A stretch of DNA of 34,189 nt from Dehalococcoidia bacterium. Its GTDB lineage: Bacteria > Chloroflexota > Dehalococcoidia > Lucifugimonadales > UBA3495. Of the stretch, positions 11,236-33,687 are shown piece by piece. A program made the position numbers and the translations under genes. The stretch spans positions 94,700-128,888 of the forward strand of contig JAGWBI010000018.1 in assembly GCA_021295965.1 (NCBI GenBank), in the 5' to 3' direction. Numbering within the stretch: the first letter of the stretch is position 1; every line of letters begins with the position of its first letter. The notes below the pieces were generated by a model. The model saw only the letters and a program-made list of their open reading frames with translations, made no database searches and was not told where the DNA came from.

Positions 11236-11994
11236 ATGCCGCCGGAAATTCGCGCCGTAGGAATTGAGGGACTGCCCGAGGTGCGGGCCGGAGACGACCT
11301 GGCCGCGCAGATTATGGACGCCGCCGCCGCCCAAGGGACTGCCATCGACGATGGCGACGTGCTGGTGGTGACGCAGAAGATTGTCAGCAAGGCCGAGGGG
11401 CGGGTGATGACCATTGACGAAGTGGAAGCCTCGCCACTGGCGGTTGCGATCACCGAGGGGCACCGCCGGGACCCGCGCCACACCGAGATGATCCTGCGGG
11501 AAAGTCGCCGCGTGGTGCGCATGGACCGGGGGGTCATCATCAGCGAGACCTACCACGGCTACATCTGCGCCAACGCCGGCATTGATGCCTCCAACATTCC
11601 CGGCGTCGATGCCATCTGCCTGCTGCCCGTGGACCCGGACGCATCGGCCCGGCGTATCCGCGACAGCGTCCGGCAGCGGCTGGGCGTGGATGTCGCGGTG
11701 TTGGTGTCGGACACCTTCGGACGGCCCTGGCGCAACGGGGCGGTCAACGTCTCAATCGGCGTGGCCGGGTTCAACCCCGTTATCAGCTACGTCGGCGAGT
11801 TCGATCCCCACGGAAACGAACTGCACACCACGACAATCGCGGTGGCCGACGAACTGGCGGCGACGGCGGAACTGGTTACGGGCAAGCTGCTGGGTGTGCC
11901 CGTGGCCCTCATCAAGGGCTACCCCTACGAGCGCATGGACGACGCCGACAGCCGGGCCATCGTGCGCGATCCCGACAAGGATTTATTCCGGTAA
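11236..11994 (+). CDS. cofE: Coenzyme F420-0:L-glutamate ligase
   Basis: A 252-residue CofE-type enzyme that uses GTP to add L-glutamate residues to F420-0, the last step in making the redox cofactor F420. Signature blocks are GDVLVVTQKIVSKAEGR (about residues 40-56), then VLVSDTFGRPWRNGAVNVSIG (about 156-176) with acidic and basic residues that bind metal and nucleotide, and KLLGVPVALIKGYPY near the end. The length fits single-domain CofE; the fused C-terminal flavin reductase part of mycobacterial FbiB is absent. The other F420 genes (cofC, cofD, cofG/H) are not in the window. The stop codon abuts the stop of the convergent Uma2 gene with no base between. Confidence 0.95.
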   Translation: MPPEIRAVGIEGLPEVRAGDDLAAQIMDAAAAQGTAIDDGDVLVVTQKIVSKAEGRVMTIDEVEASPLAVAITEGHRRDPRHTEMILRESRRVVRMDRGVIISETYHGYICANAGIDASNIPGVDAICLLPVDPDASARRIRDSVRQRLGVDVAVLVSDTFGRPWRNGAVNVSIGVAGFNPVISYVGEFDPHGNELHTTTIAVADELAATAELVTGKLLGVPVALIKGYPYERMDDADSRAIVRDPDKDLFR

Positions 11995-21441: not shown

Positions 21442-21471
21442 TTTACACCCCCGGCAGCGTCGGCATATAAT
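21442..21471 (+). promoter_or_regulatory. Sigma70-type promoter for the def-cca-secDF group
   Basis: TTTACA (21442-21447, five of six) and a perfect TATAAT (21466-21471) are separated by 18 bases. The predicted start is near 21478, giving a leader of about 58 bases before the GTG of def. This is the best promoter match in the window. Confidence 0.65.
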
Positions 21472-21535
21472 TCGGTCAACCAATTACGAATTTCGCAACG
21501 ATAACTGAAATTTTCCATCGTTGAGGAGTGTCATC

Positions 21536-22171
21536 GTGGCCGTGCTGCAAATGCGCGTTTTTCCCGATCCCATTCTGCGCCGGCGGGCGCGGAAGGTCAC
21601 GCAGTTTGACGCCAAATTGGCCCGGTTGGCTGCCGACATGGCGGAAACCATGACGGCCCATCGGGGCGTCGGGCTGGCCGCCAACCAGGTGGGCGTGCTG
21701 CAACGCATGTGCCTGGTCCGCATGGAGGACTGGGAAGAGGCGCTGGTGCTGGTCAACCCCGAGGTCATCCGTCGGGAGGGATTGCGCGAGGTTGAGGAAG
21801 GCTGTCTCAGCCTGCCCGGATACCGGGGCATGGTCAACCGGGCGGAGCGTATCCGGGTGCGCTACCAGGACTTGCAAGGCAAGCAGCAGCGTCTCAAGGC
21901 CGACTGTATGTTGGCCCAGGCCATCGAACACGAGACTGACCACCTCAACGGCATTCTGTACCTTGACCACCTCATTGCCCACGACCAGTTGTTCCGGATC
22001 CATGTTAACGAGGACGGAGAGGTGGAGTACATCCCCACCGGCGAACCCGACGCGGCGGAACTGGAAGCCGCCGCCCGGCGCATGAACAACCCACCCCAGG
22101 TGCCGCAGTTCGACCCCAGCCACGGCCGGCCGGCGACGCCGGCCGCTGACGACGCCACCGCCGCCGACTGA
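21536..22171 (+). CDS. def: Peptide deformylase
   Basis: A 211-residue metalloenzyme that removes the formyl group from the N-terminal Met of new proteins. All three family motifs are present: GVGLAANQVG (residues 44-53), EGCLSLPG with metal-binding Cys90, and HETDHLNG with His132, Glu133 and His136. The start is GTG 21536, with GAGGAG (21523-21528) seven bases upstream; a TTG at 21521 would place the ribosome site inside the gene. Beyond the core, about 45 extra residues rich in Ala, Pro, Glu and Asp form a probably disordered tail. It is followed after one base by the tRNA nucleotidyltransferase gene and preceded by a strong promoter. Confidence 0.96.
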   Translation: MAVLQMRVFPDPILRRRARKVTQFDAKLARLAADMAETMTAHRGVGLAANQVGVLQRMCLVRMEDWEEALVLVNPEVIRREGLREVEEGCLSLPGYRGMVNRAERIRVRYQDLQGKQQRLKADCMLAQAIEHETDHLNGILYLDHLIAHDQLFRIHVNEDGEVEYIPTGEPDAAELEAAARRMNNPPQVPQFDPSHGRPATPAADDATAAD

Positions 22172-22172
22172 C

Positions 22173-23639
22173 ATGGACGCCCCCGGCCTGCTCACCCGGC
22201 TGGCCGGGTTTTTTGCTGACCGCCCCGCCGGCGATGCATGGCTGGTGGGTGGCGCCGTCCGCGACGCCTTGCTGGGGCGCGAAATCCACGATATTGACCT
22301 TGCCATCTCCGGCGAAGCGAGTCGGATCGGGCCGGCGGTGGCCAATCACCTGGGCGGTACCGCGGTTCCCGTGGCCGCCTGGAACGTCGTTCGAGTGGCC
22401 CTGCCCCCGGAGGACGAGAGCGGTCGCCCTTTCCTCATCGACATTTCCGGCTATCACGGCCCTTTCGAGGATGATCTGCGCTCCCGCGACTTCACCGTGG
22501 ACGCCATGGCGCTGCCCCTGGAATGCTGGGACTCCGACGACCGGTTCGACACCATCGTTGACCCGACGGGCGGCCAGGCCGACCTCGTCCGTCGCATTCT
22601 GCGCGCCACGGGCGACGACGTGTTCAGCGCCGACCCGGGCCGGATGCTGCGCAGCGTTCGCCTGGCCAACCAGCTTGGATTTCGCATGGATCCGGACACC
22701 ACCCGCGCCATCCGTCGGGATGCTCCGCTACTGAGCCAGGTGTCCGCCGAGCGGGTGCGCGACGAGTTTCTTTCCATCCTGGCTGCCGACGGCGCCCGGG
22801 TCCAGCTGGAGATACTGGACCGCCTGGACCTGCTCTGCCGCGTCATTCCCGAGCTGGAAGCCGCCCGCAACTGCGACCAGCCGCGCGCCCATCACTATTG
22901 GGACGTGTGGGGGCATCTGCTCCACTGCGTCGAGTACGCCGAGGCGGTGACCGCCGGACACCGCAACAATGCCATCTACACCATGGCTCCCTGGACCGCC
23001 GTGGAAGACTCCTATTTCAGCGAAACCGTCGGTGACGGCCATAGCCGGCGCACCGTACTCAAGCTGGCCGCCCTGCTCCACGACATCGCCAAACCGCAAA
23101 CCAAGGCCCCTGATGCCAAGGGGCGCATCCGCTTCCTGGGACACAGTGAGCAGGGCGCGGAAATCGTGGAGCAGCGCCTGTCCGGTTTGCGGCTGTCCAA
23201 CCGCGTCATTTCCCTGGTGTCCGCCATGGTCCTGCACCACCTGCGGCCCAGCCAACTGCGGCAGGGCTGGGAGATGCCCTCCCGCCGGGCCATCTATCGC
23301 TACTACCGCGATCTGGGAGATGCCGCCGTGGACACTCTGTACCTGGCAATGGCAGACTTTTTGGCGGCGCGGGGTCCCGAACTATCCCCGGAACGCTGGG
23401 GTAACTATGCTAGAATGATTGCCACTGTTCTCGAAACGGGAGCCGAACCCCCGTATAAGGAGGTTCACGCTCGCGGCCTGGTCGATGGCCATGATCTGAT
23501 CGATGCTCTGAACATTCCCCAGGGACCCCTCATCGGAACGCTGCTCGAAAGATTGCGTGAAGCTGAGGCAGTCGGCGAAGTCTCCACTCGCGAGGACGCC
23601 CTGAACCTGGCGGCATGTTTGCTGGCCGAACGAGGCTGA
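22173..23639 (+). CDS. CCA tRNA nucleotidyltransferase/poly(A) polymerase family with HD domain
   Basis: A 488-residue class II nucleotidyltransferase. The head domain has WLVGGAVRDALLGREIHDID, containing the GG...R-D and catalytic D-x-D residues, then RSRDFTVDAMALPL and the neck block DPGRMLRSVRLANQLGF. A C-terminal HD domain is marked by LAALLHDIAKP followed by FLGHSEQGAEI. The enzyme adds CCA or A residues to tRNA 3' ends; poly(A) polymerase and split A-adding or CC-adding enzymes share this architecture, so the exact specificity is open. The start codon lies one base after the def stop. An insertion with Trp/Tyr-rich sequence (HHYWDVWGHLLHCVEYAE) sits before the HD motif, as in several Chloroflexota and cyanobacterial homologs. 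Confidence 0.93.
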   Translation: MDAPGLLTRLAGFFADRPAGDAWLVGGAVRDALLGREIHDIDLAISGEASRIGPAVANHLGGTAVPVAAWNVVRVALPPEDESGRPFLIDISGYHGPFEDDLRSRDFTVDAMALPLECWDSDDRFDTIVDPTGGQADLVRRILRATGDDVFSADPGRMLRSVRLANQLGFRMDPDTTRAIRRDAPLLSQVSAERVRDEFLSILAADGARVQLEILDRLDLLCRVIPELEAARNCDQPRAHHYWDVWGHLLHCVEYAEAVTAGHRNNAIYTMAPWTAVEDSYFSETVGDGHSRRTVLKLAALLHDIAKPQTKAPDAKGRIRFLGHSEQGAEIVEQRLSGLRLSNRVISLVSAMVLHHLRPSQLRQGWEMPSRRAIYRYYRDLGDAAVDTLYLAMADFLAARGPELSPERWGNYARMIATVLETGAEPPYKEVHARGLVDGHDLIDALNIPQGPLIGTLLERLREAEAVGEVSTREDALNLAACLLAERG

Positions 23640-23686
23640 TTCCACGATTTCACTGGCGATAACGTCTGAGGAATTGACTACATACC

Positions 23687-25534
23687 ATGCGAAGACGCAC
23701 CGTTTTCCTGACAACTTTCATACTGGTGGTGTTGGCTATCTCTGTCGTCGCCCTGGCGTTGCCGGAAATCCATATCGGAATTCCCGGTTTCCCGCGTATT
23801 GACCGTGCTGAGCCAGGCCCGCTGGGTCTCAAGCTGGGATTGGACTTGCAGGGCGGCGCGCACCTGGTGTACCAGGCTGACACCGGCACCGAGCTCAGCG
23901 TCCAGTTCCCGGAAGACTCCGAAGCAACTGTCGAGTTGATTGGAGAAGCCCTGGACGACGCGGGCTACGATGCTACCGTAGCGGACGCCGAGGACGGTTC
24001 GTCCTTCACTCTCACCGGCGCATACCTCGATCCGGAACGGCGGGAAGAGGTACGCCTGGCGCTCACCGAAGCCATCGCGGAACCTGTCTCTTTTGTGAAT
24101 GCCGACATCCCTCCGCCCACTGATGAACAGATGGAAGGCGTCCTCAGCATCATCAGCCGCCGGGTCAACCTCTACGGCACCGAGGAGCCCATCGTCCAGC
24201 GTTTCGGCGACGACCGCATCATCGTCCAATTGCCCGGCGCCAGCGGCTCGGTCATCACCGTCCGGTTCGCTGGTGATGCCGACACCCCCAAATTGGGCAG
24301 CGTCGTTGAGGGTCGAGGCTACGAGAACGTCGATGTGGAGAGCCGAGGCGGAAACGAGTTCCGCATTACCACGAGCACCACCTTGGGGGTGGACGAGCGG
24401 CAGGCGTTGCGATCTCTGCTGGAAGCGGAAGTCGGAACGGTGGAAGAACCCTTCCTGGTCACGAGCACCATCGAGGACGCCAAGATCCTGATCGGCGCGA
24501 CCGCCCAGCTGGAGTTCCTGCGCCGCCAGTGCGCCGGGCCATTGATCCAGGGCGAATTTCAGGTCGGGTGCCTGCCCCCTTACGCCGACAGCAGCATCGG
24601 ACTGACCGGCAACGACCTGGTGGATGCCTACGCGGGCAATGACCCTACCACCGGCGCATGGGCGGTCAACATCCAGTTCGACGACCGGGGCGCCGATATT
24701 TTCGGCCAGATGACCGGGGACATCAACGTGCGGACCAATCGCCAGTCCGACGAGGTAATTGCGGTATTCCTCGACGAAGAGGAACTGATCGCGCCGGTTG
24801 CCCAGGCCCATATCCGCGATGGGCGCAGCCAGATCACCGGCGGATTCAACCGGGAGGAAGCGCGCACCCTGGCGATCCAGCTGAAATCCGGTAGTCTTCC
24901 GGTGCCGCTGACCCTGATCCAGGAAGAATCGGTGGACTCGATACTGGGCGAGGAATCGCTCCAGCGCAGCATGATGGCCGGCCTGGTCGGTCTGGGACTG
25001 GTGCTCATTTTCGTAATCGCCTACTACCGGGCGGCCGGGGTAGTTGCCGCCGTTGCCCTGATTTACTATGCCGCCGTCACGCTGGCCATCTTCAAGTTGG
25101 TGCCCATTACCCTGACGCTGCCCCACATCGGCGGTTTCATCCTGTCCATCGGTTTGGCGGTGGACGCCAACATACTGATTTTCGAGCGCATCAAGGAGGA
25201 AATTCGCCTGGGCCGCAGCCTGGCATCCGCGATGGAGGTGGGTTTCAACCGGGCTTGGCCGGCCATCCGGGACGGCAACGTGAGCACGCTGATCACCTGC
25301 GTGGTGTTGCTGTGGTTCGGCAACCGCCTGGGCGGCGGGTTGATCAACGGCTTCGCTCTGACTCTGATGGTTGGTGTGCTGGTCAGCATGTTCACCGCGG
25401 TGCTGGTGAGCCGCAATCTGTTGCAGGCGCTGCAGGCCATGGGCTTGGGGCGGGCCGCCAATCTGTTCACGCCGGAAAAGATACAACCACGGGCCACCGG
25501 ACAGCGACCTCAGTCGGCTCAGGGAGGCCGCTAG
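23687..25534 (+). CDS. secD: Protein translocase subunit SecD, with apparent extra periplasmic domains
   Basis: A 615-residue membrane protein that, with SecF, uses the proton gradient to help SecYEG export proteins. It has a first transmembrane helix (about residues 6-25), the signature GLKLGLDLQGGAHLVY (47-62), ISRRVNLYGTEEPIVQ, RIIVQLPG, LIGATAQLEF, a second large loop and a C-terminal five-helix bundle with SIGLAVDANILIFERIKEEI. Compared with the usual SecD, two stretches look inserted: about residues 66-141 and 187-262. Both resemble the SecF N-terminal periplasmic domain encoded next door (for example SGSVITVRF against SGSVLTVAF). The total is still below E. coli SecD length in other parts. 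SecF follows after three bases. Confidence 0.96.
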   Translation: MRRRTVFLTTFILVVLAISVVALALPEIHIGIPGFPRIDRAEPGPLGLKLGLDLQGGAHLVYQADTGTELSVQFPEDSEATVELIGEALDDAGYDATVADAEDGSSFTLTGAYLDPERREEVRLALTEAIAEPVSFVNADIPPPTDEQMEGVLSIISRRVNLYGTEEPIVQRFGDDRIIVQLPGASGSVITVRFAGDADTPKLGSVVEGRGYENVDVESRGGNEFRITTSTTLGVDERQALRSLLEAEVGTVEEPFLVTSTIEDAKILIGATAQLEFLRRQCAGPLIQGEFQVGCLPPYADSSIGLTGNDLVDAYAGNDPTTGAWAVNIQFDDRGADIFGQMTGDINVRTNRQSDEVIAVFLDEEELIAPVAQAHIRDGRSQITGGFNREEARTLAIQLKSGSLPVPLTLIQEESVDSILGEESLQRSMMAGLVGLGLVLIFVIAYYRAAGVVAAVALIYYAAVTLAIFKLVPITLTLPHIGGFILSIGLAVDANILIFERIKEEIRLGRSLASAMEVGFNRAWPAIRDGNVSTLITCVVLLWFGNRLGGGLINGFALTLMVGVLVSMFTAVLVSRNLLQALQAMGLGRAANLFTPEKIQPRATGQRPQSAQGGR

Positions 25535-25537
25535 ATA

Positions 25538-26497
25538 ATGTTTGACATCGTCGGTAAAAGGGGCTGGTACTTCATCTTCTCAGCCATCATCATCATACCG
25601 GGACTGCTCTCCATGATCGCCCCGCCCGGCTGGGCCAGCGGCGGTTCCGGCCTGAAGCCCGGCATCGACTTCACCAGTGGCTCAGTCCTGACCGTCGCCT
25701 TTGAGGAACCGGCGCAATCCGAACCGGTGCGGGCGGTGCTTGCGGATCTGGGACATCCTGAAGCTCGCGTGCAGGCCGTGGGCGACCGCTCCGTGCTGAT
25801 CCGAACCAGCGTGCTGCAGGAAGCGTCGGGCAACCAGATTTCGGAACAGCAGCGCATCGTGGATGCCCTGGACGAGCAGATCGGCCCCATCGACGCGTCG
25901 GGCGTGGACACCGTATCGCCCATAATCGCCCAGGAAACCGTGCGCAATACCTTCCTGGCCCTCCTGGTGGCCTCGGTATTCATCCTCATCTACATCTGGT
26001 ACGCCTTCCGACGGGTGCCCCGGGCCTATCGCTACGGTGTGGCGGCGGTGGTCACCCTGGCCCACGACACGGTTATCGTGCTGGGAGTCTTCTCCATCCT
26101 GGGCCGCGTCATCGGCATGGAAGTCAACTCCATGTTCATCGTTGGCATCCTGACGGTGGCCGGATACTCCGTTAACGACACCATCGTGGTGTTTGACCGC
26201 ATCCGGGAGAACACCATCCGGGTGCCCGATCGCCGGCTGGAAGACACCGTGAACCTCAGCATCATCGAGAGCGTGGGCCGCTCCATCAACACCAGCTTCA
26301 CCACCCTGATGGTCCTGCTGGCCATGCTGCTGATCGGCGGAGAAGCCATCCGTGAGCTGCTGCTGGTGGTTGCCATCGGCGTGGTGGTGGGAACCTACAG
26401 TTCCATCTTCATCGCCGCGCAGTTCCTGGTCATTTGGGAACGGCGGGAATTTGGGCGCGTCTTCTCCCTGGGCCGGCGGGAAGCCACGGCGTCGTAA
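25538..26497 (+). CDS. secF: Protein translocase subunit SecF
   Basis: A 319-residue partner of SecD. It has one N-terminal transmembrane helix (about residues 10-27), the P1-type signature GIDFTSGSVLTVAF, and a C-terminal helix bundle carrying AGYSVNDTIVVFDRIRENTI, the SecF hallmark. The GG of the usual GIDFxGG is SG here, a variant. The start ATG 25538 has GGGAGG about 10 bases upstream and is separated by three bases from the secD stop, so the two are co-transcribed. Last gene of the def-cca-secD-secF group; a palindromic repeat follows at 26540. Confidence 0.97.
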   Translation: MFDIVGKRGWYFIFSAIIIIPGLLSMIAPPGWASGGSGLKPGIDFTSGSVLTVAFEEPAQSEPVRAVLADLGHPEARVQAVGDRSVLIRTSVLQEASGNQISEQQRIVDALDEQIGPIDASGVDTVSPIIAQETVRNTFLALLVASVFILIYIWYAFRRVPRAYRYGVAAVVTLAHDTVIVLGVFSILGRVIGMEVNSMFIVGILTVAGYSVNDTIVVFDRIRENTIRVPDRRLEDTVNLSIIESVGRSINTSFTTLMVLLAMLLIGGEAIRELLLVVAIGVVVGTYSSIFIAAQFLVIWERREFGRVFSLGRREATAS

Positions 26498-26539
26498 CCT
26501 TGCTCTCGCTCCCGTCGGGGACTGTCCGAAGCAATATCC

Positions 26540-26564
26540 GTAGGGGCGAATAATCATTCGCCCC
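26540..26564. repeat. 25-bp palindromic repeat of the second subtype, copy 2
   Basis: Same 25 bases as 16047-16071 (arms GGGGCGAAT and ATTCGCCCC, loop AATC, preceded by GTA). It lies 43 bases after the secF stop and may end that transcript. Confidence 0.93.
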
Positions 26565-26710
26565 CACGTCTTCCGCCGTCGGAGCGCGCTCCGTTCTCCC
26601 TTGACCACGGGCTGGCCTGCTATACTGTCGCCACCACGGTTTCGTGTTGAATAACAACGACAGTCTCGTCGCGACGGCCCCATTACGTCCGACGGGCCCC
26701 AGGGGGACGC

Positions 26711-27763
26711 ATGGATTTCGGCATCAACGCAAATTTCAACATCGGCAGCCAGCCCACCCACGCCGACGCATTCGCGGAAGCTTTTGAGGAGATCGATCTG
26801 GCCGAAGAGCTGGGTCTGGACACCGTCTGGCTGGGCGAGATGCACTTCAACCCCAACCGATCCGTGCTGTCCGCCCCGATCATCGTCGCCACGGCCATCG
26901 CCTCGCGCACCAAGCATCTGCGCACGGGCATGGCGGTCCAGGTGCTGCCGCTGATCCACCCCCTGCGCATCGCCGAGGAAACGGCCACCGTGGACCAGAT
27001 CAGCGAAGGGCGCTTCGAGTTGGGCGTGGGCCGCAGCGGCAACGTCCGCGCCTACGACATCATGGGTATCGACTATGGTGAGAGCAAGGATAGGTTCCAG
27101 GAAGCCTTGGACATCATCCTGCAGGCGTGGTCCGGCGAGACCTTCTCCTACGAAGGCAAGTACAACACCATCACCAACGCCACCCTGTCGCCGGTGCCCT
27201 ACCAGAAGCCCCATCCCAAGGTCCGCATCGCCGCCAGCAGCGAGGACAGTTTCGGGCGCATCGGCCGGCTGGGCCAGCCCATCTTCCTGGGCTTGCGCAC
27301 CATGGACGTTGAGGAACTGAAGACCAACCTGCAGGAGTACAAGGACGAGTGGAAAGCCGCCGGCCACCCCGGCGACGGCGGCGACATCAACGTCCGCGTC
27401 CCCGTGTACCTCGCCCCCAACGAAGCCGAGGCCATCGAGGAACCCCGGGACAGCATCGAAGCCTTCTTCAGCCGCCAGCGCGAACTCTTCGAATACTCCC
27501 TGGGACGGGCCGGCGTGGAAGCCTCGGAGAAAAGGCAGCGCCGCTACGACAAACTCGCCAACTCCACCTACGAAGACCTCCTGGAAACCCGCGTCGTCTT
27601 CGGCACCCCCGAGCAGGTGGTGGACCGGCTCCACGAGTTTGAGGAGATGCTGGGCATCACCGGCATCACCGCCGAGCTTAACCCCGGCGGGTTCCTCCCC
27701 AAGGAGGCCGTCCACCGCAGCCTGAGCTTGCTGACCCAGGAAGTGATGCCAGAATTCAAGTAA
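26711..27763 (+). CDS. LLM-class (luciferase-like) flavin- or F420-dependent oxidoreductase
   Basis: A 350-residue bacterial-luciferase-like TIM barrel. Family blocks are LAEELGLDTVWLGEMHF (about residues 31-47), ATAIASRTKHLRTGMAVQVL, HPLRIAEETATVDQISEGRF, ELGVGRSG and, near the end, VVFGTPEQVVDRL. Such enzymes use FMN or coenzyme F420; a cofE gene in the same window makes F420 plausible, but the cofactor cannot be decided here. Substrates could be alkanes, sulfonates, aromatics or cyclic ketones. GGGGG precedes the ATG at 26711 with normal spacing. The neighbours HpaB-type monooxygenase and VOC-fold protein suggest a catabolic group, although each gene is separated from the next by a palindromic repeat. 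Confidence 0.93.
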   Translation: MDFGINANFNIGSQPTHADAFAEAFEEIDLAEELGLDTVWLGEMHFNPNRSVLSAPIIVATAIASRTKHLRTGMAVQVLPLIHPLRIAEETATVDQISEGRFELGVGRSGNVRAYDIMGIDYGESKDRFQEALDIILQAWSGETFSYEGKYNTITNATLSPVPYQKPHPKVRIAASSEDSFGRIGRLGQPIFLGLRTMDVEELKTNLQEYKDEWKAAGHPGDGGDINVRVPVYLAPNEAEAIEEPRDSIEAFFSRQRELFEYSLGRAGVEASEKRQRRYDKLANSTYEDLLETRVVFGTPEQVVDRLHEFEEMLGITGITAELNPGGFLPKEAVHRSLSLLTQEVMPEFK

Positions 27764-27799
27764 CTTGCCACTCTGTCACCGCGAGGCTTATTCCCAACT

Positions 27800-27885
27800 G
27801 TCATCGCGAGGAGCGACGCGGCAATCTCGCAACCGAAGCAGCGGCCCTTGTCCCCGCGAGATCGCCACGCTGCGCTCGCAATGAC
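27800..27885. repeat. Palindromic MITE-like repeat, copy A
   Basis: The left arm starts GTCATCGCGAGGAGCGACG and the right arm ends GCTGCGCTCGCAATGAC, its inverted counterpart. Together with the inner GCAATCTCGC / GCGAGATCGC pair it forms a long hairpin. A shorter degenerate fragment (GTCACCGCGAGG) lies just upstream near 27776. Related copies occur at 29419, 31114, 32096 and 34103. Confidence 0.88.
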
Positions 27886-27937
27886 ACCGTCGTATGAAAC
27901 TTCGTCGCCCAGGTTTTTGACAAGGAGGTGAAACCTC

Positions 27938-29392
27938 ATGCCAGCGCGCACCGGACAGGAATACATCGACGAACTCAAAAACCGCCCCCGCGAGGTATGG
28001 ATCCGGGGCGAACGGGTTGATGACGTGACCACGCACCCCGGCCTGAAGAACGGGGTCAAGGCGGTGGCCGCCCTCTACGATATGCAGCATGACCCAACTC
28101 TGCGGGAGGAAATGACCTTCGCCTCGCCCTCCACCGGCGACCCCGTTGGTCTATCCTTCCAGATTCCCCGCACCGCGGATGACCTGATGCGCAAGCGGGA
28201 GATGATGTCCCGCTGGGCCTGGGCCAGTTGCGGCATGATGGGCCGCTCGCCGGACTTCATGAACTCCATCTTCACCGCCTGGGCTGGTTCCGCTGACTAC
28301 TTCGCGCAGGACCGCCCCGAGTTCAAGAAGAACGTCCTCAACTACCACGAGTTCCTGCGGGAAAACGACGTCACCCTCACCCACGCCCTGGTCAATCTCC
28401 AGCGCAGCCGCACTCCGGCCTCCGCCGATAACCTCACCGAAGAAGTGGCCCTCACCGCCGTCAAGCAGACCGACGCCGGCCTCGTCGTCCGGGGCAGCCG
28501 CGTCCTGGCGACCCTTGGCCCCATATCCGACGAAATCGCCATCTATCCCGTTGCCAGCCACCGCCTGGCCGACGACGACTGGAAGCACTCCTTCTCCTTC
28601 TCCATCCCCTGTGACACCCCCGGCGTCAAGTTCCTCTGCCGCGAGAGCCTTGACCAGGGCCGTTCTCACTTCGACCACCCCCTTGGCTCCCGCTTTGAGG
28701 AGATGGACACCGTCGTGTTCTTCGACAACGTCCTGGTGCCGTGGGAGCGCGTCTTCCTCCTGGGCAACGTGGAGCTGTGCAACAACTACGGCACGGGGAC
28801 CATGTCCAACTCCCATACCGGCTACCAGGTGTTGAACCGCTGCCTCGTGAAAACCGAGTTCATGCTGGGCCTGGCTGACCTGATCGTGGAGACGCTGGGC
28901 TCCGGCTCGATACCCCACATCCAGGAGCAGGTGGCGGAGCTGATCACCTACCGGGATATGATGCGGGCCTGCCTGCGCGCCGCCGAAGCCGACGCCAGAC
29001 CCAACCAGTACGGAATGTTGTGTCCGGCCATGGGCCCCATACAGGCGGGCCGCACCCTGTTCGGCAGGACGCTGTATCCCCGCATGATCGAGATTATCCA
29101 GCTCCTCGGGACCAGCAGCCTCATGGCCCTGCCCGCCGAGGCCGACTTCGAGTCGGGTATCGCACCTGAGGTGAACCACTACCTGGCTACCGACAGCACC
29201 GACGCCTGGGAACGCTCCAAGCTGTTCCACCTGGCCTGGGACGCCTCCTGCAGCTCCTTCAGCGGACGCCAGGTGCTGTATGAGCGCATGTTCGGGGGCA
29301 ACCCCGTCCGCAACGCCATGATGCTCTTCAGCAACTACGACAAGGAACCCTTCCGTCAGCAGGTCCGCGCCTTCCTGAACGCCGACGACTAA
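27938..29392 (+). CDS. 4-hydroxyphenylacetate 3-hydroxylase (HpaB) family flavin monooxygenase
   Basis: A 484-residue two-component monooxygenase oxygenase subunit that uses reduced flavin made by a separate reductase to hydroxylate a phenolic ring. Family signatures are YIDELKNRPREVWIRGERV at the start, HPLGSRFEEMDTVVFFDNVLVPWERVF in the middle (a flavin-binding-region block), and SSFSGRQVLYERMFGGNP near the end. Other group members include hydroxylases of chlorophenols and the dehydratase 4-hydroxybutyryl-CoA dehydratase, but the Fe-S cysteines of the latter are not evident, so a monooxygenase is more likely. A near-perfect ribosome site AAGGAGGTG (27922-27930) precedes the ATG by seven bases. 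No HpaC reductase is seen. Confidence 0.9.
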   Translation: MPARTGQEYIDELKNRPREVWIRGERVDDVTTHPGLKNGVKAVAALYDMQHDPTLREEMTFASPSTGDPVGLSFQIPRTADDLMRKREMMSRWAWASCGMMGRSPDFMNSIFTAWAGSADYFAQDRPEFKKNVLNYHEFLRENDVTLTHALVNLQRSRTPASADNLTEEVALTAVKQTDAGLVVRGSRVLATLGPISDEIAIYPVASHRLADDDWKHSFSFSIPCDTPGVKFLCRESLDQGRSHFDHPLGSRFEEMDTVVFFDNVLVPWERVFLLGNVELCNNYGTGTMSNSHTGYQVLNRCLVKTEFMLGLADLIVETLGSGSIPHIQEQVAELITYRDMMRACLRAAEADARPNQYGMLCPAMGPIQAGRTLFGRTLYPRMIEIIQLLGTSSLMALPAEADFESGIAPEVNHYLATDSTDAWERSKLFHLAWDASCSSFSGRQVLYERMFGGNPVRNAMMLFSNYDKEPFRQQVRAFLNADD

Positions 29393-29418
29393 CACCATTC
29401 ACCGACCGACGCCCAAGT

Positions 29419-29531
29419 GTCATTGCGAGCGAAGCGCGGCAATCCCGTCGCCGCAGCAACGGCTCTCAGGCACAGTTGGTCAGCGTCGGAACGAGATTGC
29501 CACGAATGCCGGGCGGCATTCTCGCAATGAC
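29419..29531. repeat. Palindromic MITE-like repeat, copy B
   Basis: The left end reads GTCATTGCGAGCGAAGCGCG and the right end GGCATTCTCGCAATGAC, inverted relative to each other, with inner GGCAATC...GATTGCC. It fills the gap between the HpaB-family and VOC genes. The centre is longer and more diverged than in copy A. Confidence 0.88.
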
Positions 29532-29557
29532 AAATCATCAACAAGGAGGAACCAAAA

Positions 29558-30037
29558 ATGTCGTACACCCCGAAACACCTGGGCCACCTCGTTATGCGCG
29601 TCCGCGACATGGACCGCTCCCTGGACTTCTACACCCGCGTCATGGGCCTGACCATCATGGAACGCTCCCCCAGCGGCACCGTCTTCATGTCGGCCAACAC
29701 CGAGAAGTCCCACGAACTCGCCATCCGCGCCATCGGCATGGACGCCGCCGGCCCTGACCACTCCATCGTCGGACAGGCCCACATGGCCTGGCAGATGGAA
29801 ACCTTCGAGGACCTCCAGGAACTCTACAACCGCCTCCTCGAGAACAACGTGCGCATCAACCGCGTCAGCGACCACGGCGTCTCTCTGGGCGTCTATCTTC
29901 TCGACCCCGACGACAACGAGATCGAGGTCTATTACGAGATGCCCGCCTCCCAGTGGGAGCGCCACCCTGAGCGCGGCCTCTTCGGCGGCACCTTCCCCCG
30001 GCGGCTGGAAGAACCGGCCGGCGTCGCCGACGACTAA
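29558..30037 (+). CDS. VOC-fold protein, possible extradiol ring-cleavage dioxygenase
   Basis: A 159-residue vicinal-oxygen-chelate protein with two beta-alpha-beta-beta-beta modules. The metal ligands expected for type I extradiol dioxygenases are present: His10 in LGHLVMRVRD, His75 in GQAHMAWQM, and Glu123 in DPDDNEIEVYYE. The block DMDRSLDFYTRVMGL is typical of catechol 2,3-dioxygenase and glyoxalase-like proteins. At 159 residues it is a single-unit form, shorter than two-domain extradiol enzymes. Placed directly after an HpaB-type hydroxylase, a role in cleaving the catechol it makes is plausible but not proven; a glyoxalase or resistance role is possible. A strong ribosome site AAGGAGGA (29543-29550) precedes the ATG. 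Confidence 0.9.
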   Translation: MSYTPKHLGHLVMRVRDMDRSLDFYTRVMGLTIMERSPSGTVFMSANTEKSHELAIRAIGMDAAGPDHSIVGQAHMAWQMETFEDLQELYNRLLENNVRINRVSDHGVSLGVYLLDPDDNEIEVYYEMPASQWERHPERGLFGGTFPRRLEEPAGVADD

Positions 30038-30049
30038 ACCGCATCACCT

Positions 30050-30076
30050 GTAGGGGGGGCGCAAGCGGCGCCCCAC
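30050..30076. repeat. Palindromic repeat, variant of the GTAGGGG family
   Basis: GGGGCGC and GCGCCCC pair around AAGCG, preceded by GTAGGG. It has the same GTAGGGGCG start as the copies at 15994, 16047, 16833 and 26540 but a different centre. It lies 12 bases after the VOC stop. Confidence 0.8.
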
Positions 30077-30133
30077 CGCAACCGAGTCGGCCGGATTTTG
30101 GTTAAATTGCCGCTCCCGACCTGCGAGGTGATT

Positions 30134-31099
30134 ATGAAAGCCATCAGAATACACTTCACCGATACCGGCGATGAGTTGCGCATGGACGAGGTAGAACAGC
30201 CGGCCCCCCAATCCAATGAGGTGCTGATCAGGACACAGGCCATCGGCGTGAACCGCGCCGACACGTACCGGGCGCGAAACGCGCCGTCGGGCCAACCCGA
30301 ACCGCCGCGCATCCCCGGCCTAGACGTAGCCGGCGTGGTGGAATCAGTCGGCCCTGGCGTCGCCGGCTGGCAGCCCGGCGACCCGGTGATGGCGCTCGTT
30401 CGGGGCGCCTACGCCGAATATTGCACCGCCCAATCGGTGCTGGCCTTCCACGCGCCCGAGGGAATGTCCACCACCGACGCGGCGTCGTTGCCCTGCGTGT
30501 TCTTCACCGCCTGGTACGCCTTCGAGATGGCCGGATTGCAGGCCGGCGAAACCGCCTTGGTCCACTCGGCCGGCAGCGGCGTGGGCATGGCCGGCATCCA
30601 GATCGCCAATAATCTGGGCGCCCGCGTCCTCACCAGCGCCGGCTCCGACGAACGCGTCGAGCGTGGCCGCGAATTGGGCGCGGAGGCCGGCGTGAATTAC
30701 TCCAATCAGGACGTAACCGCAGAACTGCTGCGACTCACCGACGGTCGCGGCGTGGATATGGTTCTGGACACGGTGGGCGGCGCAATCTTCGACGCTACAT
30801 TGCGAGCGTTGGCTCCGGGCGGTCGGGTCGTGACCGTCGGCGGACACAGCGGCCAGCGATCCGAGTTAGACGAGCAGCGGCTTGCCGACCAGGGCCAATG
30901 GGTGCGCCGCGCCGGAGTGTTCGACGAGGCGGCGCGAGACGTGGAACAGCGCGGTTGGGCCACGATGAAACCGTGGTTCGAAAACAGCCAGATGCACACC
31001 GTCGTGCAGGAAGTCTTCCCCTGGACCGAGGCCACCCGGGTTCAGGAACTCCTCACCAACCGTGGCGTGTTCGGCAAGGTCGTCATGGAGGTCAACTAA
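30134..31099 (+). CDS. Zinc-less quinone oxidoreductase/medium-chain dehydrogenase family protein
   Basis: A 321-residue MDR-superfamily enzyme of the NADPH:quinone reductase branch. The N-terminal GroES-like domain has GVNRADTYRARN and PRIPGLDVAGVVESVG. The Rossmann part has VHSAGSGVGMAGIQIAN with AGSGVG (residues 146-151) for NAD(P)H. The catalytic-zinc Cys and His of alcohol dehydrogenases are missing, so it should reduce quinones or activated alkenes. GAGGTG sits five bases before the ATG at 30134. A longer frame from TTG 30098 has no support. It may use the reducing chemistry of the neighbouring aromatic genes, but this is inference. Confidence 0.93.
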   Translation: MKAIRIHFTDTGDELRMDEVEQPAPQSNEVLIRTQAIGVNRADTYRARNAPSGQPEPPRIPGLDVAGVVESVGPGVAGWQPGDPVMALVRGAYAEYCTAQSVLAFHAPEGMSTTDAASLPCVFFTAWYAFEMAGLQAGETALVHSAGSGVGMAGIQIANNLGARVLTSAGSDERVERGRELGAEAGVNYSNQDVTAELLRLTDGRGVDMVLDTVGGAIFDATLRALAPGGRVVTVGGHSGQRSELDEQRLADQGQWVRRAGVFDEAARDVEQRGWATMKPWFENSQMHTVVQEVFPWTEATRVQELLTNRGVFGKVVMEVN

Positions 31100-32229: not shown

Positions 32230-32307
32230 GGACAATGTGCCATTGTGCTCGAATATGGAGTCTGGTATGGGTACGGTGGCGACAATAAGAATTCAGGAAG
32301 TTTCGAC

Positions 32308-33687
32308 ATGGCAGACGCACAGCACGTTGAGTGGTTGCTCCAAGGTGCAGACGCATGGAACCGACGACGGGAGTCCACTCCGTTCAAGCCTTTCCTGATG
32401 AACGCCGATATCTACGGCGAGTTCAACAAACGCGGGTTGCTTCACCAAAACGGACGCGTGCGGCTCAACAGGTTCAACTTGAGCGACGCAAACCTGATAG
32501 GAGCTATCCTCCGAAACACCGACTTCTACCAAGCTGACTTGCGTAGGGCCAAACTGACCGCCAACTTGGATACAGTCGATTTTGGCCAAGCCGATCTTAC
32601 CGACGCCGAGATCATGCTCGCGTACGTGGAAAACGCCAGTTTCGGGTCCGCTACCCTCCACAATGCCAATCTTATACAGACTAACTTGGCCGGCGCCGAA
32701 CTCGCGTGGTCACAGATCTGGACTGCTCGAATATTTGAGCCTGGTGGTTCAACCCCTCAGTCAGATCCTGAAATATGTCCAGGGCATCCAATAGCCGACG
32801 TGTCGGAATTCATCGACCGGTTTAGGAACATCGAGTGCCGGCACGCTAAAGACTTGACGTACTATTTTCGCGGGGAAAGTTGTACCGATTGGGAGTTGAG
32901 ACCGTCGGTGATGCGATACGTCAAAACGGCTCGGAGTTTCGCATGGAGGTCAAAGGAGAGTGGCATGCTGACCGAACTGATGTCGCGCCACCCTGAGGAA
33001 TTTACAAATGCCCACTCGGCGCTTTCCCAGTGGGTTATCGCCCAACACCATCGCCTCAAAACCCGCTTCTTGGATATCACTGCAGACCCGTTGGTGGCGT
33101 TATTCAATGCCTCCACTGACGAAACCAACCGCCACGTTACCGGGGTAGTTCATATCTTTGCGGTCCCCCATTGGTTGGTAAAACCGTACGACGACACGGC
33201 GGTCAGCGTTATAGCAAATTTCGCCAAGCTGGATCGTACAGACCAGAATACCCTATTAACCAAAACGGGCACACAAATGCAGGAACAAGACCCTGATGTT
33301 CAGATCGGATATTTGTACAGACAGGCAATCGCCCGACTCTGCCGGCTTATCCGAGAAGAAAAGCCGTGGTTCGAAGAAGACATGGTGGATGTACGAGATT
33401 TCTTCCGAGTGTTTGCGGTCCAGCCGCAGCAATCCATCGAGCGTATCCGCGCCCAATCTGGTGCTTTCCTCGTTTCGGCCTTTCATGAACGGTTTGAGCG
33501 CGACGAAGTTTTAAAGTGGAACAGCGATACTCCGATCTATGCCCACTACACGATCACCATTCCACCGAACAGAAAGGACCGGGTCGCAGCCGATTTGCAC
33601 TTACTACGCGTCACCCGGGAGCGACTCTTCCCCGGCTTAGATTCGTCTGCTGACGCGATCACAGGGCTACATGCGAGAGGTGTTTAG
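32308..33687 (+). CDS. Pentapeptide-repeat and FRG-domain fusion protein
   Basis: A 459-residue cytoplasmic protein with two recognisable parts. Residues 1-30 (EHV-like QHVEWLLQGADAWNRRR) form a lead-in helix; residues 57-137 contain pentapeptide repeats of the A(D/N)LxX type (for example LSDANLIGAIL, QADLTDAEI, HNANLIQTNLAGAEL), forming a right-handed beta helix. Residues about 185-270 carry the FRG domain: YYFRGESCTDWELRPSVMR and QHHRLKTRFLDITADPLVALF, matching the family pattern F-R-G then Q-H-x-G-L-x-T-R-L-L-D. FRG domains have no established biochemical activity. ATG 32308 has AGGAAG at 32295-32300 and is preferred to GTG 32245. It sits between two repeats and beside a broken protease, an accessory setting. 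Confidence 0.88.
   Translation: MADAQHVEWLLQGADAWNRRRESTPFKPFLMNADIYGEFNKRGLLHQNGRVRLNRFNLSDANLIGAILRNTDFYQADLRRAKLTANLDTVDFGQADLTDAEIMLAYVENASFGSATLHNANLIQTNLAGAELAWSQIWTARIFEPGGSTPQSDPEICPGHPIADVSEFIDRFRNIECRHAKDLTYYFRGESCTDWELRPSVMRYVKTARSFAWRSKESGMLTELMSRHPEEFTNAHSALSQWVIAQHHRLKTRFLDITADPLVALFNASTDETNRHVTGVVHIFAVPHWLVKPYDDTAVSVIANFAKLDRTDQNTLLTKTGTQMQEQDPDVQIGYLYRQAIARLCRLIREEKPWFEEDMVDVRDFFRVFAVQPQQSIERIRAQSGAFLVSAFHERFERDEVLKWNSDTPIYAHYTITIPPNRKDRVAADLHLLRVTRERLFPGLDSSADAITGLHARGV

Follow-up and report, generated by a model that had tools for sequence, protein, structure and literature searches.

Organization of the secD locus

The window, by which we mean the whole 34,189-nucleotide stretch of DNA analysed here, carries a run of four genes on its forward strand: def (21521-22171, +), a CCA-adding/poly(A) polymerase gene (22173-23639, +), secD (23687-25534, +; 615 aa) and the adjoining secF (25538-26497, +; 319 aa), which, judging from their spacing, likely constitute an operon. 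A promoter-like site precedes def (21442-21471, +; a single site, with 0.8 to be expected from chance alone). Both export genes were assigned with curated models: the SecF protein scores 274.7 bits against TIGR00966 (cut-off 160), while SecD passes the cut-off of the NCBIfam equivalog TIGR01129 (338 bits, cut-off 244.4), matches the Pfam families SecDF_P1_head, SecD_SecF_C, SecD_1st and Sec_GG, and is thus a bona fide SecD.

Most bacteria possess SecDF, whose domain plan, lineage-specific additions aside, is commonly regarded as invariant. In the window protein, an uninterrupted P1 base (from the GG strand to LEF) is absent, the base being broken twice. Its first strand with the GG motif (residues 47-65; 23825-23881, +; Sec_GG at residues 47-66 and the strand itself at residues 58-64, i.e., model residues 16-22) is followed by a first inserted domain at site 1, D1 (residues 66-141; 23882-24109, +), by a helix and two strands of the base (residues 142-183; 24110-24235, +), by a second inserted domain at site 2, D2 (residues 184-263; 24236-24475, +), and by the last helix and strand of the base (residues 264-283; 24476-24535, +; model residues 219-240), which align with canonical SecDs. 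Downstream lie the P1 head (residues 303-406; 24593-24904, +; PF22599, E 9e-24) and the C-terminal membrane domain (residues 410-583; 24914-25435, +; PF02355). The SecD_1st match covers only residues 149-185, corresponding to profile positions 1-37 of 60, and its end at position 37 indicates that the start of D2 interrupts the base. Because the protein nonetheless passes the curated SecD model, we class it as a variant SecD despite its split base.

The boundaries of the inserts were read from an alignment with 25 other SecDs, chosen from 74 that were read out of 80 loci of named genomes. Site 1 lies after the GG-motif strand, between HLVYQAD and PTDEQMEG, and site 2 lies after IVQLPG, between that motif and IEDAKILIG. 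Both run straight through in 23 of the 25 sequences; L166 (from the MAG Chloroflexi SP188, 52% identity in the best segment) has both inserts, which match the SecF profile described below weakly (5.1 and 1.7 bits), and L167 has the site-1 insert alone. The original prediction, made from this stretch alone, had placed two additional SecF-like segments at SecD residues 66-141 and 187-262, the whole span of residues 66-262 corresponding exactly to 23882-24472, and had described extra residues between IVQLPG and the SIEDA-type block, which the alignment displays; far from being ordinary parts of homologous proteins, the segments are missing from SecDs read from other orders. An ordinary SecD P1 is ruled out by the same alignment, and an assembly artefact by 14 sampled genomes of the genus (G000-G013, three of them single-contig), all of which match at least residues 1-611.

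Relationship of D1 and D2 to the first periplasmic domain of SecF

The segments had been proposed to resemble the first periplasmic domain of the SecF next door (SecF P1, equivalent to P4 in SecDF; 25661-25936, +; Sec_GG at SecF residues 33-59). At the level of single sequences, D2 aligned with the window SecF P1 with a score of 68, against 27.7 ± 5.0 for shuffled sequences (0 of 2000 shuffles reach it), and D1 aligned with D2 with a score of 55 (reached by 1 of 2000); the score of 40 between D1 and SecF P1 was reached by 58 of 2000 shuffles and is not significant alone. An HMM built from SecF only likewise found D2 in the window SecD with an E-value of 7e-6 and D1 with only 0.077. Family profiles compared with hhalign matched D1 to F1, a profile of SecF P1 segments, at 98.6% (E 5e-16, 71 columns), D2 to F1 at 98.7% (E 2e-16, 68 of 92 columns) and D1 to D2 at 99.0% (E 2e-18). 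These E-values refer to a single pair and are uncalibrated, and column-shuffled F1 profiles (n = 50) served as the control, giving best values of 1.3e-3 for D1 and 1.9e-3 for D2. F1 consists of 64 distinct segments, all from SecF and none from SecD, taken from 80 SecFs beside 151 SecD loci after removal of duplicates, of segments of greater length and of one containing X; the D1 and D2 profiles comprise, respectively, 22 (single-copy site 1 only) and 24 (the pattern missed L015 and L017) of the 26 readable SecDs of the window's family, f1.

Judged by these alignments, the kinship of D1 to SecF appears only with a family profile, but in the profile comparison both domains match SecF P1 nearly end to end, as had been anticipated, and the predicted common order of secondary structure elements is borne out by a joint alignment (A4), in which strand (TGS/T-x-L-x-V-x-F), helix, strand, strand, helix and strand recur in D1, D2 and SecF. 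D1 and D2 are almost certainly SecF-P1-type domains inserted in SecD. The second half of the GG motif of SecF (SGSV) is kept in D2, and D1 has TGT; since neither has the complete GIDF-GG motif that in SecF comes out of TM1, and neither follows a TM helix, we call them SecF-P1-type rather than SecF domains in place. Pfam recognizes no family in D1 and D2 alone, and SecF P1 itself reaches only Sec_GG above the cut-off.

The SecD base is itself distantly related to SecF P1 (hhalign 94.3%, E 1e-7), and both are described as ferredoxin-like (PMC5141469), a relationship that would favor reading the inserts as duplicates of SecD's own P1 base instead of SecF P1. However, D1 and D2 align with the base profile over just 13-15 columns (E 0.32 and 0.24, respectively), against 71 and 68 columns with SecF P1, which makes such an origin very improbable. 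Searched with hhalign against the SecD base and head profiles, the D1 and D2 profiles gave no match (E 0.09-0.32), and duplication of either the base or the head was rejected on these grounds.

Predicted fold of the interrupted base

The P1 region was modelled with AlphaFold2 from SecD residues 43-412 together with 25 SecD relatives, no SecF sequences being included. In the resulting model (mean pLDDT 84.5, pTM 0.62), D1 (residues 68-140) and D2 (residues 188-260) each adopt a beta-alpha-beta-beta-alpha-beta, ferredoxin-like arrangement, in agreement with the original prediction, and the split base follows the same order of elements with pieces at residues 58-64, 146-182 and 261-282. Two ferredoxin-like domains are thus predicted to be nested in a third, with D1 separating the first strand of the base from its first helix and D2 separating the third strand from the second helix, although the pTM of 0.62 leaves the placement of the two modules uncertain. 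A separate prediction for D2 by itself, run with five further SecD inserts, gave the same topology (pLDDT 88.8).

In a Foldseek search with the P1 model, eleven SecDF chains rank first (best 3aqo, E 1e-11, query TM 0.30), the query TM of merely 0.2-0.3 being due to the inserts. D2 alone retrieved generic ferredoxin-like proteins from the PDB (best E 4e-3) and no SecDF chain among the 50 matches listed. The fold therefore agrees with that of SecF P1 yet is unspecific, and the kinship with SecF rests on the profiles.

Comparison with known SecDs

Canonical SecD and SecDF proteins (solved structures 3aqp, 3aqo, 5xam, 5xan) share the GG motif, the P1 base, the P1 head and the RND-like membrane domain with the window SecD, but lack the two complete extra domains nested in its base, which 23 of the 25 aligned SecDs do not have. 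SecF P1, in turn, has in common with D1 and D2 a profile over nearly the whole domain and the predicted fold; it is, however, flanked by membrane helices, whereas D1 and D2 sit in SecD, flanked by base strands. Cyanobacterial SecD also bears lineage-specific additions in its periplasmic part, but those described in PMC13174344 are helix-loop insertions, not SecF-type domains. A survey of the literature by title and the start of the abstract, with subscription journals and bioRxiv mostly outside its scope, found neither SecF-type inserts in SecD nor a tandem SecF P1.

The closest parallel in position comes from Proteobacteria. The P1 of E. coli SecD is reported to be larger than that of Thermus (PMC5141469), and at site 1 the E. 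coli protein is longer by about 80 residues, roughly the size of D1, to which Pfam assigns no family; it also has a PF13721 domain before the GG motif and no site-2 insert. The PF13721 domain (one sequence) did not match the D1 and D2 profiles. By eye, the site-1 segment is present in eight of nine SecDs from E. coli and plasmid-borne records (L161 from E. coli, L246, L248-L252 and L254; not Tistrella), and an insert at this site is consequently not new in itself. A profile of five of these segments could be aligned with F1 in a different register over 45 columns (E 2.3e-5, prob 76, against 0.012 for the best of 100 shuffles), which is suggestive, but not proof, of a remote sequence kinship with SecF P1. 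If the site-1 domain were this proteobacterial segment, D1 would be old and only D2 and the multiplication of the domains would be new. The shared position, the eight carriers and the partial alignment speak for this; the short match in a different register, the still weaker match to D1 (prob 38) and the merely 25-30 residues found at site 1 in SecDs of the class outside the order, where scorable, make it improbable.

Distribution and copy number in the order, class and phylum

SecD was matched in all 40 genomes of the sample that includes the window's own genome and genus, and in 112 of 118 order genomes, 143 of 148 class genomes and 193 of 201 phylum genomes. The order was sampled with 138 genomes (G000-G137), 105 of them with a family label, yielding 99 readable SecDs from 39 families (labelled but unreadable: G016, G032, G050, G060, G115 and G119). 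Sites were located by regular expressions, and copy numbers were derived from length and from a profile, U, at E<0.1; G045 is unscored at site 1. At site 2, 15 of the 99 are unscored; inspection by eye shows an insert in G020 and G042 and none in the rest.

Site 1 is long in 46 of the 98 scorable SecDs, site 2 in 41 of the 99 (39 found by the script, plus G020 and G042) and both in 33, with zero to four copies at site 1 and zero to two at site 2. The distances fall into discrete classes: from GG to RRVN, 31-45 without an insert and otherwise 104-123, 179-225, 243 or 327-333; from LPG to LEF, 27 without an insert and otherwise 99-112, 174-193 or 213-238. With the U profile, site 1 contains one or more recognizable domains in 11 families and site 2 in five; f1 matches by construction because U contains its D1 and D2. 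Both inserts occur in all 26 readable SecDs of f1 (27 sampled; in G016, also of f1, the SecD match comes in two pieces, residues 1-183 and 206-613). The largest expansion is that of family f15 (six genomes, 887-913 residues read), with four copies at site 1 and two at site 2. Searched with the F1 HMM among 121 distinct SecDs, the best f15 protein (L053) reached a full-length E-value of 4e-32, compared with a best E of 0.32 for 121 shuffled periplasmic parts; among the matches listed, one lies on its base and six on inserts, of which four have E<1e-4 and two are weak. The inserts of f4, f12, f29 and f33 match the SecF profile weakly. At the other extreme, 14 of the 99 SecDs, from eight families, have no insert and canonical length; the six best F1 matches to these proteins (E 0.00095 to 0.017) fall on their own base, and three reach E<0.01. 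D1 and D2 very probably belong to a wider, recurrent modular expansion of one module in Dehalococcoidia.

Other kinds of insert were also noted. The site-1 insert of L129 (family f14, G072) is unrecognized by the SecF-type profile, and L158 (G156, f60) carries at site 1 some 50 residues of another kind, LysM-like on visual inspection, in which Pfam calls no LysM. A third insert type lies between the LEF of the base and the head in 17 families, with f23 unscored (e.g., L104, L118, L124 and L126); it measures about 130-270 residues by tail length, and some examples carry long PT/E-rich repeats. Similarity to part of the head is seen in its middle (E 3e-4, against 0.035 for the best of 60 shuffles), and similarity to the final stretch of the base at its end (E 1e-4). 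Compared with the SecF profile it is not SecF-like (E 0.07), and F1 run on the 29 SecDs with this insert gave a best E of 0.03.

History and origin of the inserts

A quick tree of the SecD core was built from 60 of the 99 SecDs of the order and four outgroups; 25 of its 61 inner branches have less than 80% support. Families f1, f4, f10 and f15 group together (SH-aLRT 97), as do f13, f26, f30, f33, f36 and f39 (SH-aLRT 99), which have inserts at site 1 only; f20 and f29 have them at site 2 only. On this tree, insert presence changes at least three times at site 1 (one of them being f14, whose insert is not SecF-like) and at least four times at site 2, and copy number changes at least eight and at least six times, respectively.

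An insert rarely has the SecF of its own genome as its nearest SecF. Among 70 SecFs, the window's own ranks 26th for D1 and 22nd for D2, which indicates that the transfer was old or indirect; exceptions are G103, whose own SecF is the top match to its site-2 insert, and G017, whose own SecF is the second-best match to its site-1 insert. This rank is lacking for 29 of the 99 genomes, f13 among them, in which the pattern found no SecF. The strongest insert-SecF pair joins the f13 insert with the SecF of G027 (f5; E 1e-16). The inserts thus show no sign of recent copying from the neighboring secF, the window's own SecF being the best match for neither D1 nor D2.

Repetition of the same module in SecF

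When A4 was used as the query, it matched 134 of 148 genomes of the class and 129 of 201 of the phylum. Compared by eye, the matched rows lay in SecF or in fused SecDF, several genomes having more than one match. None was noticed in SecD outside the order, again by eye and with the rows uncounted; since A4 missed the weak f29 and f33 inserts inside the order, absence elsewhere is to be read as not detected.

The multiple matches proved to be arrays within single SecF proteins. G166, G223 and G193 show eight, nine and nine matches (E no higher than 0.25 and in most cases far below it) in reading frames of 993, 900 and 915 codons from stop to stop, which TIGR00966 confirms as SecF (238.5, 258.1 and 239.5 bits, respectively; cut-off 160). 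A SecF with five P1-type domains, one of them weak, is found in G165, and SecFs with two in G148, G146, G027 and G056. The SecDs of G166, G223, G193 and G165 are of canonical length (436-469). The domain is stacked in SecF in one lineage and planted in SecD in another. The SecFs with eight to nine matches (L262, L263 and L265) belong to family f70 of the class and adjoin a SecD of ordinary length, and L264 (a 676-codon SecF), L266 and L267 have five (one weak) or two P1-type domains.

Sequence constraint and putative role

Measured across nine genomes of the genus, dN/dS averages 0.31 in D1 and 0.22 in D2, compared with 0.06-0.16 in the remaining parts of SecD, ratios that are rough because dS is near 1; dN itself is 2-6 times that of the other parts, and amino-acid identity is 57% and 63%, against 81-92% elsewhere in the protein. 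D1 and D2 are therefore kept under constraint and are at the same time the most variable parts of SecD. The raised dN is as compatible with a loosely constrained surface as with a binding role; altered substrate binding, suggested in the original prediction, is a conjecture.

How such domains might act can be considered against the known motor, whose head is described as binding the exported chain and moving with proton flow (PMC6028853, PMC7793623), and whose SecD base and SecF P4 are reported to pair through a weak interface into an almost continuous sheet (PMC5141469). The core of the window protein (GG motif, base, head and membrane part) would putatively work as in ordinary SecDF. The extra SecF-type modules may use the same edge as the base-P4 sheet, and could enlarge the outer platform of the motor and guide the chain. 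Taken as a whole, the explanation we favor, nested SecF-P1-type modules that form part of a wider expansion and may widen the motor's outer platform, has a probability of roughly 55%. The collar or chain-handling role by itself is a tentative candidate that we consider less likely than not, and the weak base-P4 interface reported in PMC5141469 counts against it.

Neutral growth and docking are serious rivals to a chain-guiding role. In the former, an insertion-tolerant fold would gather copies by recombination among secD, secF and earlier copies, in a neutral or ratchet-like manner and with little functional effect beyond structural compatibility. The repeated changes in copy number on the quick tree, the rapid evolution of D1 and D2 and the insert-free SecDs of the order are what such growth would produce; but both inserts are kept throughout the readable f1 SecDs, dN/dS stays well below 1, and SecF arrays of eight to nine copies would look costly for a neutral trait, so that on balance we regard this explanation as rather doubtful. 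Docking would have D1 and D2 recruit an extracellular or surface factor, such as a foldase or an S-layer or cell-wall enzyme, to the translocon without touching the substrate. Fast-evolving, lineage-variable modules would suit a partner interface, and a study of VemP reports that PpiD crosslinks to the SecD P1 head (PMC7793623); we nevertheless think it unlikely, a shade more so than neutral growth.

In Dehalococcoidia, SecF P1 might be a portable, stackable block that lineages add in two fixed SecD loops or in tandem in SecF, giving the Sec motor outer arms of variable length, with arm length tuning the putative grip, guidance and hand-over of exported chains by the motor, a proposal that we put forward as speculative. 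In any case, the outer face of a very common export motor is built here from a portable, repeatable module, in sequence that belongs to no Pfam family, and two loops of the SecD base are shown to accept whole domains. The natural series of SecDs with zero to six extra SecF-type domains and SecFs with one to about nine offers a ready-made experiment on the role of the outer motor and on the part that base and head play in turning proton flow into chain movement.

Other features of the window

Two long antisense ORFs, one of 602 aa over secD (23678-25486, -) and one of 677 aa over secF and the next gene (25682-27715, -), are probably by-products of base composition. Downstream of secF, a luciferase-like monooxygenase, a homologue of HpaB-type 4-hydroxyphenylacetate 3-hydroxylase, a glyoxalase-family protein and a zinc alcohol dehydrogenase are encoded in a row (26711-31099, +) and perhaps form a catabolic cluster. 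The window also encodes an F420 ligase (11236-11994) and a protein with pentapeptide repeats and an FRG domain (32245-33687, +).
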